Of a stretch of DNA of 64,000 bases, positions 4,822-8,299 are shown piece by piece (position 1 is the stretch's first letter; every line of letters begins with the position of its first letter). The stretch covers positions 681,901-745,900 of the forward strand of contig NZ_SMFQ01000004.1 of NCBI RefSeq assembly GCF_004339015.1, in the 5' to 3' direction. Below the pieces are notes generated by a model, which was not told the origin of the DNA, made no database searches, and was given only the letters and a program-made list of their open reading frames with translations. The DNA comes from Cocleimonas flava. Lineage in GTDB: Bacteria > Pseudomonadota > Gammaproteobacteria > Thiotrichales > Thiotrichaceae. A program made the position numbers and the translations under genes.

Positions 4822-5652
4822 TTATTGGCACTGGCTCAGAAACGCCTTTTTGGCTTCCTTTTGTATTGATTCCATCTCACCACTTCTTTGCATTTTTAGC
4901 AGCTCTAACTTTAGTTGTTCGGCAATAGACTCGTTACGTTTATGCAAATAATGGTACATCTGAAAGTTATCTAAAATGGGAGTTAATGCCTTTATATCGT
5001 TAAACTTGAATTTATTTGCGATACATCTCACGCCATATACCCCAATAAAAAAATCACTCCTGTCGGCACTTAATTTCCTTAAACCCTGGTAGCTCGTTTT
5101 CACTCTTGCTGAGTTGAATCCCTTGCTTTTTTGTTCTGCAAATTTATTACCAAAAATAAAATCAATTTTGTATGGTTTAAGGCTTTCCCATCCTTCTACG
5201 ACAAAATCCTGTTTTTTGGTATACGCATAAATCTCATTTGAAACAATCGAAATCGGTATCTTTATCAAATTATGATATTCACTTTGAAGCCCAGTCATTC
5301 TCACTAACTCACCACCTGTCACCCCAGAGTTAGCAAATACTAAAGATCGTTCTGGGGGGAACAATTCAAATTCGACTTCTTTTCCAATTCGCGAATAAGC
5401 GACTTTAAGGATGCGTCTGGCTGTTTCTATAAATAATGAGCTATCAAGGTCTGGCTGAGAAATAACAATTTTGTTACCGCTATCTAGGCTATCGTTATCA
5501 GGAGTACTATCGTTAACAGGAGTACTATCGTTTTGCACTTGGGGCTCTGCTTGAGAAACGCTTGGGTGAACATGTTGAGATGCAATTGAAATAGACGCCA
5601 TTGTAGAAATAGCGAAAATAGCAGCGATGAAAAGCTGTTGCAGCTTATGCAT
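4822..5652 (-). CDS. Orphan periplasmic solute-binding protein-like, paralog A
   Basis: 276 residues with a signal peptide (MHKLQQLFIAAIFAISTMASIS) and a low-complexity linker with repeated NDSTP units at about residues 40-55, then a domain resembling bacterial extracellular solute-binding family 3 proteins. It shares a block pattern with the next gene: VEGWESL(K/L)PY near the middle, SDFFIGV/SDVFIGL, a central Cys in RCIANK and a C-terminal QCQ, suggesting a conserved disulphide. No permease or ATPase gene adjoins it, so transport is not implied. Such orphan proteins may act as sensory or scavenging binding proteins. The ligand is unknown. The pair is in tandem, 135 bases apart. Confidence 0.7.
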   Translation of the reverse strand: MHKLQQLFIAAIFAISTMASISIASQHVHPSVSQAEPQVQNDSTPVNDSTPDNDSLDSGNKIVISQPDLDSSLFIETARRILKVAYSRIGKEVEFELFPPERSLVFANSGVTGGELVRMTGLQSEYHNLIKIPISIVSNEIYAYTKKQDFVVEGWESLKPYKIDFIFGNKFAEQKSKGFNSARVKTSYQGLRKLSADRSDFFIGVYGVRCIANKFKFNDIKALTPILDNFQMYHYLHKRNESIAEQLKLELLKMQRSGEMESIQKEAKKAFLSQCQ

Positions 5653-5787: not shown

Positions 5788-6522
5788 TTAACATTGATTC
5801 ATAAACTCTAAAACAGATTGTTTCTGTAACTCCTCGATTCGTCCTGATGATTTCATATTTCTTAGAATCAGCTCTAATTTTTTAGCGAGTTCACTGTGCT
5901 CTTTATTTAAAAAATGAAATAAAATCACAGTCTCCAAGGGTGGATCTAAGGATTTAATATCTGACAAATTCAGTTTATTGATAACACACTGAGCACCGGT
6001 TAATCCGATAAACACATCACTCCTTCCCAGATCCAGTTTGATTAAACCTTGCGTTTCAGATCTGACCCCTTCAAATTTCATCCCTTGTGTTTTTTGTTCA
6101 ATCGTTTTGGAGCCTGCAACATAACCAATATTATAAGGTAAAAGACTTTCCCATCCTTCTACTTTTATATCCTTTTTGGCATAAACAGAAATCACGTCAT
6201 AAGCCACTGGCACAGAAATCATTATAAGATCTGGATGCTGTGCTTTAATACCGAGACTTCTTGCTAATAAACCATCCGCAGAACCATCTTCGACATAATA
6301 ACCCGAGCGTATTGCAGGTAACTTTTCAAGGCTAAGACTGAAACCAATCTGATGATAAGCCTCCGTAAGTATGCGTTTAGCCATTAATTGATAGGCCGAC
6401 TCTTTGGCATAAGACAGTACAATTTCATGATCCGCATGAGATTGCGAAAACACCGAAAAGGAAATAATAATAAGAAATGATCGTAAACAGGAGGATCGTA
6501 TTTTTTTTATTAGCTTGGTCAT
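5788..6522 (-). CDS. Orphan periplasmic solute-binding protein-like, paralog B
   Basis: 244 residues, signal peptide in the first 30 residues (hydrophobic SFLIIISFSVFSQSHA). Paralogous to the gene at 4822-5652: both have the ARRIL/AKRIL helix, a GGELVRMTG/ADGLLARSLG turn, VEGWESL, a central Cys (GAQCVINK) and a terminal Cys (MNQC), but B lacks the NDSTP linker. The fold is that of family 3 solute-binding proteins. It is upstream of paralog A on the same strand, so the pair looks like a local tandem duplication that has diverged. The function is unknown and no transporter partner is visible within 2 kb. Confidence 0.7.
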   Translation of the reverse strand: MTKLIKKIRSSCLRSFLIIISFSVFSQSHADHEIVLSYAKESAYQLMAKRILTEAYHQIGFSLSLEKLPAIRSGYYVEDGSADGLLARSLGIKAQHPDLIMISVPVAYDVISVYAKKDIKVEGWESLLPYNIGYVAGSKTIEQKTQGMKFEGVRSETQGLIKLDLGRSDVFIGLTGAQCVINKLNLSDIKSLDPPLETVILFHFLNKEHSELAKKLELILRNMKSSGRIEELQKQSVLEFMNQC

Positions 6523-6845
6523 TTCTTAACTTCTATAAAGGTGAGTACTAGTGAGTAGTGTGCACACCAGCGGATGTTCACTATATATTATTCACCATAA
6601 TATCTTATATACAAAACAGTCTCACAAGTATTCATAGTATTTTATGCAGACCATGAAAAAACTTATAGTTCAGCTTATATCTATAGACACTCTCTTATGT
6701 TTGGAGTTTTTTTAAACAGTAAAACGAAGTAAGGATTGAATCTAGACGGCGCATATTTAAATTTATAGAAAAATCATAAATCTGTAATACTCTTGTCATG
6801 TTCAGCGTCTACTATCTTCTGCTTTTTAGACAGAGGATGCTTAGA
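6523..6845. other. Divergent intergenic region, 323 bases
   Basis: AT-rich region between the minus-strand binding-protein genes and the plus-strand HD-domain gene; it should hold both promoters. An AGAGG Shine-Dalgarno sequence at 6832-6836 precedes the chosen start at 6846. I see no other gene and no clear operator. Confidence 0.5.
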
Positions 6846-7391
6846 ATGCGAAAAATCTCAGAATTACAAGCGTTCTACACGCCTGATAATCAAAACAAAT
6901 ATAACGAAGCGCTATCGCAGCTTCAACATGCTGTGCAAGTTGCCAAACTTGCTGAGCAAAACTTTGCAACCGATGCACAGATTGCTGCCTGTCTATTACA
7001 TGACATTGGCCATTTAATTTTTGATACTGACCTGACACTTGAAGACAGAGATGATGTGCACGAAGTACATGGCGCGATCATTTTAAGTCAATTCTTTGGC
7101 CCCGAAGTGTTTCAGCCGGTTCGCTATCACGTTGAGGCCAAAAGGTATTTATGCACCATTGATAGTCACTACTATAACGACCTCTCCCCAACTTCTAAAC
7201 AGAGTTTAAAGCTACAAGGCGGACGCTACCAAAACACGCAACAAATCAAAGCGTTTGAAAACAAGCCGTATTTCAAGGAAGCCGTTCAACTTAGTCGATT
7301 TGATGATTGTGGGAAAACGTCAGAAAATTCAAATGCAGATTTTGATCACTACCTTCCACTACTGAACTCACTACATGCGTATGCTAGCTAG
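6846..7391 (+). CDS. PhnZ/TmpB-like HD-domain phosphonate oxygenase
   Basis: 181 residues from the ATG at 6846, chosen because AGAGG lies 9 bases upstream; upstream in-frame starts lack such a site. HD-domain fold with the di-iron ligand pattern: H28, H52-D53 in LLHDIGH, H56, H72/H75, H95 and D153/D154. The stretches EAKRYLC, LQGG and YFKEAVQLSRFDD closely follow the pattern of PhnZ, the mixed-valent di-iron oxygenase that cleaves the C-P bond of 1-hydroxy-2-aminoethylphosphonate to glycine and phosphate. TmpB is a relative that makes glycine betaine from the trimethyl analogue. The 2-oxoglutarate-dependent partner (PhnY or TmpA) is not in this window, so substrate is inferred. The next gene is also phosphonate-associated. 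Confidence 0.7.
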   Translation: MRKISELQAFYTPDNQNKYNEALSQLQHAVQVAKLAEQNFATDAQIAACLLHDIGHLIFDTDLTLEDRDDVHEVHGAIILSQFFGPEVFQPVRYHVEAKRYLCTIDSHYYNDLSPTSKQSLKLQGGRYQNTQQIKAFENKPYFKEAVQLSRFDDCGKTSENSNADFDHYLPLLNSLHAYAS

Positions 7392-7534
7392 TCTTTTATT
7401 AGGAAGATTAATCAGTACGGCTCACCGCTTTTTCAAAACAGATAATTCAAAAATAGATGGAGAATCAGGTTCAGGTCATTTAAAACCTATCGTAACGATG
7501 GTTTAATAGAGATCACTGCTAACCACTTTTTATT

Positions 7535-8299
7535 ATGGACACATCAACGAGAATGAATAACCCTAGCTCATCTACTCAGATACCTGAAAGCGACATACAA
7601 AGTCAGGAGCGCTATGCGATTTATTTCACTCTGCCAACGGATCATCCTGTTTATCGCTTAGCAACTTTGTGGCTTGGGTACGATGTATGCACCGGCAGAC
7701 ATATTGAAGACTTTGAAAAAACTGTTTACCACCGTGACCTGGATGAATTAGCTAAATTTTCGACAAATCCTAAAAAGTACGGTTTTCACGCAACACTTAA
7801 AGCACCATTCAGACTGCAATCGGGCAAAAATATTGAAGAGCTAGAATCAGCTCTGGATGAATTCAGCAAAAACTATCGTCCATTTAAATGCAAACCACTA
7901 AAAATCAAAAAAATGGATAAGCTTTTAGCATTGACCCCGATTAAACCGTGTAAAAAATTAACTGCTCTAGCGTCTGATTGCGTCACCACATTCGAAGATT
8001 TCCGCGCACCCAACACAGAGATTGAGAGAGCACGAAGAGATCCCGATAATTTAACCCCCCATCAAACCGAGCTGTTAGACAAATGGGGTTATCCGTTTGT
8101 GATGGATGAGTTTAATTTTCACATGACGCTGAGTAATCAATTGAAGAAAAAAGACATCAAGATTGTTCGTAAATGTCTCAAACAATTATTCAGATCTTTT
8201 TTAGGAAAGCCCTTCCACGTCGACCAAATCTGTTTGTTTCACCAAACCAACTACCATGAGCCATTTAAATTAGTGAGACGTTATCCGCTAGTGGGATGA
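7535..8299 (+). CDS. DUF1045 phosphonate-associated 2H phosphoesterase-like protein
   Basis: 254 residues. Two HxT motifs of the 2H phosphoesterase superfamily are visible, FHATLKAPF at about residue 88 and FHMTLSN at about 203, and the opening RYAIYFTLPTDHPVYRLATLWLGYD is typical of DUF1045 (putative phosphonate metabolism protein), usually found in phn operons. The exact reaction in the family is not settled; a phosphodiester or cyclic phosphate role has been suggested from the fold. It follows the PhnZ-like gene after 143 bases in the same direction. Start ATG at 7535 with an alternative in-frame ATG at 7553. It converges on an ABC transporter gene with a repeat-derived terminator between them. 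Confidence 0.82.
   Translation: MDTSTRMNNPSSSTQIPESDIQSQERYAIYFTLPTDHPVYRLATLWLGYDVCTGRHIEDFEKTVYHRDLDELAKFSTNPKKYGFHATLKAPFRLQSGKNIEELESALDEFSKNYRPFKCKPLKIKKMDKLLALTPIKPCKKLTALASDCVTTFEDFRAPNTEIERARRDPDNLTPHQTELLDKWGYPFVMDEFNFHMTLSNQLKKKDIKIVRKCLKQLFRSFLGKPFHVDQICLFHQTNYHEPFKLVRRYPLVG

Follow-up and report, generated by a model that had tools for sequence, protein, structure and literature searches.

The HD oxygenases are characterised by an H...HD...H...H...D di-iron motif and include MIOX, which cleaves a C–C bond (PMC8177086, in the part cited here). The described systems closest to the locus presented in this work are PhnZ (structures 4mlm, 4mln and 4n71), TmpB (structure 6npa) and the PhnHD protein of Achromobacter (TIGR03276; PMC11203657). 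Homologues of phnZ are counted in 15 of 1,186 phnWX clusters and in 24 of 75 phnWAY clusters in the relevant section of PMC8154272, where (R)-1-hydroxy-2-aminoethylphosphonate (R-HAEP) is also given as a natural, environmental substrate. PhnHD found with PhnX and without PhnY* has already been published, with HAEP as the predicted ligand, according to the portion of PMC11203657 that treats it.

The locus studied here lies in a 64-kb window, which is the whole stretch of DNA that was analysed (G000:C3:681901-745900), in a 4.49-Mb genome of 10 contigs that is given as 100% complete. It comprises two plus-strand genes flanked by genes on the opposite strand. The upstream gene (6846..7391, +) encodes a predicted PhnZ/TmpB-family HD di-iron oxygenase of 181 amino acids, assigned from profile matches, alignment and predicted fold; it starts with the ATG at 6846, its stop codon ends at 7391 and the frame is intact. 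A Shine–Dalgarno-like AGAGGA is read at 6832..6837 (+), 8 nt 5′ of the ATG; a longer mechanical ORF, from 6798, runs into the promoter. The neighbouring gene (7535..8299, +) encodes a DUF1045 protein with a predicted 2H-phosphoesterase fold (domain match, HxT motifs and model), the true start of which may be further downstream. No terminator was found in the 143-nt gap between the HD and DUF1045 genes, and an intergenic hairpin acting as terminator or operator was rejected, as the gap folds like its shuffles (z −0.22). Divergent from the HD gene, two similar-looking adjacent proteins are encoded on the minus strand at 4822-5652 and 5788-6522; both have signal-peptide-like starts, and Pfam at 1e-5 gave no match for them.

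Concerning family membership, the HD protein has a Pfam HD match of 33.3 bits, and its top NCBIfam model is TIGR03276 (Phn-HD) with 175.3 bits (8.5e-52; cut-off 214.6). The GmPhnZ1 model gives 147 bits and the TmpB model NF049941 138.8 bits (cut-off 300 for each), and the protein is below all three NCBIfam cut-offs for the PhnZ/TmpB group. In a sequence search of solved structures the best match is TmpB 6npa (5.5e-30), while PhnZ is found at 3.3e-18. The AlphaFold2 model, based on 45 aligned sequences, has a mean pLDDT of 88.8; it superposes on TmpB 6npa with Z 24.5 (rmsd 2.7, 174 residues) and on PhnZ 4mln with Z 24.1 (rmsd 2.3, 176 residues), the next family being MIOX with Z 10.9 (rmsd 3.1, 149 residues). 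In the predicted fold, TmpB and PhnZ tie. Judged by sequence, metal ligands and predicted fold, the protein is a PhnZ/TmpB-family oxygenase, and the family match is not due to chance. The earlier note had read it as PhnZ/TmpB-like, and these matches bear that out; the residues which it quoted (H28, H52-D53, H95, EAKRYLC, LQGG and YFKEAVQLSRFDD) are exact. It missed both the active-site change S150 and the Pho-type promoter.

Two alignments of the HD protein with its relatives were used, all of them among the matches listed, beyond which nearer relatives may exist. The first contains the window protein and 89 others (80 genome loci, three same-order loci, six plasmids and two solved proteins, with L066 and L074 dropped as they carry no HD label). 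The second contains 96 others, namely the first set plus eight class-level loci and minus the plasmid row L094, which is present in the first alignment and stays outside the tree and the second alignment. All six di-iron ligands are present in the HD protein (H28, H52, D53, H72, H95 and D153). The HD protein also keeps K99 and Q124, which, like the ligands, occur without exception in the 96 others; it keeps H56 and S117 as well, conserved in 94 and 95 of the 96, respectively (among the matches listed). Of the 34 columns with at least 90% conservation in the first alignment (among the matches listed) the HD protein keeps 33, and its sole departure is S150, where arginine is found in 97 of 97 others across both alignments (again among the matches listed). 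This residue is located three positions before the last Asp ligand and is equivalent to Arg158 of PhnZ and Arg169 of TmpB. A review (PMC7916636) places PhnZ Arg158, in the part concerned, in a proton-transfer chain Asp161-Arg158-Glu162 beside the metal, Asp161 being a ligand. Given this position in the chain, the activity of the HD protein may be lost; an altered or lowered activity is predicted from the loss of the equivalent arginine. The lid has the form Y-x-E, one residue shorter than YxxE, and is seen in 25 of 97 rows including the query (among the matches listed); since 24 other rows share it, we regard it as a natural variant.

Compared with PhnZ, the HD protein has the same predicted fold, the six metal ligands, glutamine at position 25 and the Tyr and Glu of the lid; however, identity in the structure alignments is 26-30%, the lid is one residue shorter, Arg158 is replaced by Ser150 and the genome holds no PhnY* partner. 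TmpB shares with it the fold, the metal ligands and the AKRYLC and LQGG motifs, whereas the genome lacks TmpA, TmpB-type residues are missing at those positions that are most telling and Arg169 is replaced by Ser150. It resembles the Achromobacter PhnHD, as described in the cited part of PMC11203657, in that the host has no PhnY* and the metal and substrate residues are kept. It differs in having serine for the arginine near the last ligand and in its surroundings: the Achromobacter protein is described beside phosphonatase operons, whereas neither PhnX nor PhnA was found in the present genome, so the neighbourhood logic of the published PhnX-linked PhnHD does not apply here.

The position of the protein within the family was addressed with a signature score and with a tree, in both cases among the matches listed. 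The score is based on the positions that separate 27 TmpA-linked rows from 34 contrast rows (C-P-lyase-, PbfD/PhnX-, PhyH-, DUF1045- and PhnCDE-linked). It is positive in 24 of the 27 TmpA-linked rows, the three negative ones being L012 (−23.2), L052 (−2.6) and L048 (−1.6), and it is −40.8 in the HD protein. The protein carries Q25 and A29; TmpA-linked relatives have M at 25 in 20 of 23 and M at 29 in approximately 80% of 27 (among the matches listed). By its residue signature the protein goes with the PhnZ-, C-P-lyase- and PbfD-linked relatives, against TmpB. In the 97-row tree (among the matches listed) its terminal branch is longer than any other, at 1.64 against a median of 0.48, and no position for it is supported. 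With the protein constrained to the broad TmpA-linked group, the AU test gives p 0.504, the constrained tree being slightly better; with the TmpA-linked core of 22 rows it gives p 0.098. Neither grouping is rejected, and the tree speaks neither for nor against a TmpB position. A clade of the HD protein and L004 is 9.23 log units worse, yet likewise not rejected (p 0.366).

Upstream of the HD gene, a pattern scan gives a Pho-box-like direct repeat, CTGTAAT-ACTC-TTGTCAT, at 6782..6799 (+), with 12 of 14 consensus positions. It is followed after 10 nt by a −10-like hexamer, TACTAT (6810..6815, +), a spacing of the pstS type. The consensus used in the scans is one that we take to be correct, and the genome's own pstS promoter supports it: the best match genome-wide (1 mismatch) is located 55 nt 5′ of pstS, in a pst-phoU-phoB cluster whose gene names, except PstS and PhoB, were assigned by reading translations. 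There too the spacer between the box and the −10 hexamer (TATGAT) is 10 nt, equal to that of the HD gene. Genome-wide, 26 sites have no more than two mismatches, 10 of which are outside ORFs under a criterion set here, and the reversed pattern gives 15; Pho-box-like sites alone are therefore weak indicators, many of them occurring by chance. Within the 64 kb, no site other than that at the HD gene has at most two mismatches, and no other shows the complete architecture of box and −10 hexamer, for which 60 shuffles of the 64 kb give a mean of 0.067 sites. When the 200 nt upstream of the HD gene were shuffled 20,000 times, 10 of the shuffled sequences contained such a box and 1 the complete architecture; the box was spotted by eye and these statistics were run afterwards. 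A box with at least 11 of 14 positions within approximately 400 nt upstream is present in 6 of 88 HD loci including the window (among the matches listed), and the reversed pattern in 0 of 88. Taken together, the HD gene is apparently under PhoB-type, phosphate-starvation control, with PhoB as the putative binding protein.

The DUF1045 gene is adjacent to the HD gene, as the earlier note had it. Its product matches PF06299 with 187.6 bits (cut-off 24.3) and contains both HxT motifs (H85-A-T87 and H196-M-T198). Its model, based on 4 sequences (pLDDT 78.2), is closest to YjcG (Z 15.5, rmsd 2.8, 165 residues), followed by the Arabidopsis cyclic phosphodiesterase (Z 13.8, rmsd 3.0, 166 residues) and LigT (Z 13.3, rmsd 3.4, 164 residues). 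The model thus indicates a 2H phosphoesterase fold, and the substrate is probably a ribose-1,2-cyclic-phosphate-like ester. For DUF1045 proteins, a role in opening the cyclic ribose phosphate product of C-P lyase has been proposed (PMC8235418, part cited), and an increase under phosphate stress is described for a Phaeobacter in the cited part of PMC10132767. The window protein has the domain, both HxT motifs and the 2H fold in common with the DUF1045/TIGR03223 proteins of C-P lyase operons; it differs from them in that its genome has no C-P lyase and in that TIGR03223 is just missed (248.0 bits, cut-off 248.95). In a phylum sample, DUF1045 is found in 77 of 397 genomes, own included. PhnJ is present in 68 of the 76 others and absent in 8, which shows that DUF1045 can be found where C-P lyase is missing. 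Three of the eight have an adjacent phnM or phnN and five have none of the references used. In L152, L154 and L159, which lack PhnJ, DUF1045 adjoins phnM and/or phnN, i.e. the ribose-phosphate part without the lyase.

Looking at the partner genes, the earlier note reported that the window lacks a PhnY/TmpA hydroxylase, a C-P lyase and a phosphonate transporter, and none of these (PhnCDE in the case of the transporter) was seen in the 64 kb, based on its ORFs and the positions of genome-search matches. In the genome, Phn-HD is present in one copy. A TmpA query returned one partial match of 26% identity (7.6e-4) to a TauD-like protein and no TmpA homologue. For the only PhyH protein (L002), the match to the methylphosphonate hydroxylase model reaches 14.4 bits against a cut-off of 500. 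Neither L002 nor L007 (TauD) was retained as a hydroxylase partner, their similarity to phosphonate hydroxylases being not above noise. Genome searches for PhnJ and PhnA found neither, and the search for PhnX gave nothing above the cut-off of 220 bits; HAD proteins were rejected as PhnX (best 41.8 bits). Outside the window, contig 1 encodes a PhnCDE-type importer whose ATPase is over the PhnC equivalog cut-off (323.6 against 266.1 bits) and whose binding protein passes only the broad phosphate/phosphite/phosphonate subfamily (228.5 against 112.05 bits); importers of the PhnD type may carry phosphate, as stated in the cited part of PMC10284923. A second importer, L148, was rejected as a phosphonate importer, as its PhnD-like binding protein fits a putative selenate model (372 bits).

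The HD gene is distributed sporadically in related bacteria. Within the order, 4 of 63 genomes carry it, its own included (3 of 62 others), and 0 of 11 congeners do; from the latter count we consider lateral gain probable; GC content, which is ordinary for this gene, was rejected as a signal of such gain. Of the three other genomes of the order, one (L004/L160, of the same family) has a C-P lyase operon in which phnC to phnM, DUF1045, phnN and HD are clustered, and two (L005 and L006) have TmpA–TmpB pairs. In the latter two, which also belong to the same family, a second, different HD-domain gene follows TmpA–TmpB (L005:2011-2469 and L006:838-1455). At class level, HD is matched in 13 of the 369 genomes sampled, own included and four of the 13 only weakly. 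The 88 labelled HD loci (among the matches listed) have TmpA (23), PbfD/PhnX (14), PhyH (7), phnJ (6), DUF1045 (2) or phnCDE (2) as neighbours, and the rest are the query and 33 with no reference neighbour; the last number is an upper bound, given the few neighbour references and many short contigs. A pairing like that of the window occurs elsewhere among the matches listed only in L083 (DUF1045, HD, phnN), with C-P lyase absent from its stretch.

The promoter, the family and the fold together support a C-P-cleaving oxygenase of phosphate starvation. Our tentative choice, held with slightly less than even confidence, is a laterally acquired, phosphate-starvation-induced PhnZ-type oxygenase which frees phosphate from a ready-made α-hydroxyphosphonate, e.g. 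R-HAEP. At low phosphate, PhoB would bind the box at 6782-6799 and the HD gene would be switched on, possibly together with the DUF1045 gene 143 nt downstream if the two are co-transcribed. As there is no recognisable α-hydroxylase in the genome, the substrate would most likely be a ready-made α-hydroxyphosphonate from outside; R-HAEP would perhaps enter through the PhnCDE-type importer. The mixed-valent di-iron enzyme would then use O2 to cleave the C–P bond into phosphate and a carboxylate, which by PhnZ chemistry would be glycine in the case of R-HAEP, and the DUF1045 protein would serve as the 2H phosphoesterase. Three features are unusual: neither PhnX nor PhnA was found in the genome, the oxygenase gene is paired with DUF1045, and serine stands at the Arg158 position. 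In relation to the published PhnHD without PhnY*, the locus would be a modest variant, with the Arg-to-Ser change, the Pho control and the DUF1045 pairing as new features. A bolder form, which we regard as improbable, is a partner-free, PhoB-controlled HD branch which works without the universal arginine and cleaves a phosphorus substrate new for PhnZ-type enzymes; this would perhaps be a complex hydroxyphosphonate, phosphoribosyl or otherwise, that the 2H esterase prepares or finishes.

In view of S150 and the long branch, lost or altered activity has to be taken seriously, and a crippled enzyme or a changed substrate are strong competitors of the favoured reading. The oxygenase may be crippled or in the course of being lost, i.e. 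encoded by a laterally acquired gene whose product has lost some or all of its activity through the Arg158-to-Ser change, with frame and promoter still intact. We consider this fairly unlikely: the frame is open, 33 of 34 conserved columns are kept (among the matches listed), the fold is confidently predicted, the Pho promoter is well formed and GC is ordinary, all of which are set against the unique loss of the arginine, the longest branch of the 97 rows (both among the matches listed), the pathway partners absent from the genome and the HD gene missing in 11 of 11 congeners. Alternatively, the substrate may have changed, or the feeding oxygenase may belong to an unrecognised family that is neither PhyH-type PhnY* nor TmpA-type. 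This would suit the absence of a known hydroxylase from the genome, the unique S150 with its long branch (among the matches listed) and the breadth of HD oxygenases, which include the C–C-cleaving MIOX (PMC8177086, part cited); we consider it likewise fairly unlikely, as the family-conserved H56, K99, S117 and Q124 are kept, and the Pho control and the C-P-lyase-associated neighbour point to phosphorus.

Two further readings draw on the neighbouring genes. The HD and DUF1045 pair could be the remnant of a C-P lyase operon, where PhnHD and DUF1045 often sit, as in the L004/L160 cluster; phnJ accompanies 6 of 88 HD loci (among the matches listed) and is found in most DUF1045 genomes. However, PhnJ has left no trace in the genome, the gene order is unlike that of L004/L160, the window DUF1045 protein scores 168.8 bits with homologues outside the class against 118 with L160, and the clade with L004 fits worse, which makes a remnant very improbable. 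The lowest probability of all is given to a TmpB-type step in which OH-TMAEP yields glycine betaine and phosphate, and betaine is converted to sarcosine and glycine. The earlier note had put this route forward from the betaine and sarcosine genes of the window, where BCCT, sarcosine oxidase subunits and a GbdR-like regulator are indeed encoded; the BCCT family and soxA/soxB models score over their cut-offs, the specific betaine-BCCT and GbdR models under theirs. A search for GbcAB, which it also suggested, found an apparently fused GbcA-GbcB-like protein of 884 amino acids outside the window (L198:2549-5203, contig 3), with GbcA (496.8 bits) and GbcB (374.0 bits) as its best models, both under cut-offs. 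Betaine catabolism is encoded, TmpB is the nearest solved relative by sequence and the broad TmpB grouping is acceptable (p 0.504). Nevertheless, TmpA is absent and the sole PhyH protein is unlike phosphonate hydroxylases, an outcome that the earlier note itself had named as refuting its proposal; Q25 and A29 stand where TmpA-linked relatives mostly have M, and both the signature (−40.8) and the TmpB model (138.8 bits, cut-off 300) speak against it. TMAEP-to-betaine was consequently rejected as the main reading, on the missing TmpA and the non-TmpB residue signature.

If the phosphate-starvation oxygenase works as favoured above, hydroxyphosphonates would be tapped under phosphate limitation by one oxygenase with no hydroxylase, and the protein would be a natural test of the need for the Arg158 relay in HD oxygenases. 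If it is inactive, counts of phnZ in genomes and metagenomes would overstate working pathways. DUF1045 without C-P lyase must also be explained by any account of DUF1045.

Pho-box-like sites are also seen at two other genes of this genome. One is located 5′ of the binding-protein gene of a PotABCD-type ABC importer operon on contig 1 (L197:7298-8472), with 10-nt spacing to TATAAT; this is possibly an importer of a phosphorus compound. The other is 27 nt upstream of a glycosyltransferase gene on contig 3 (L198:5964-7202), the product of which is nearest to glycolipid synthase models. Lipid remodelling is expected under phosphate stress, and the site at a glycolipid-synthase-like glycosyltransferase fits this.
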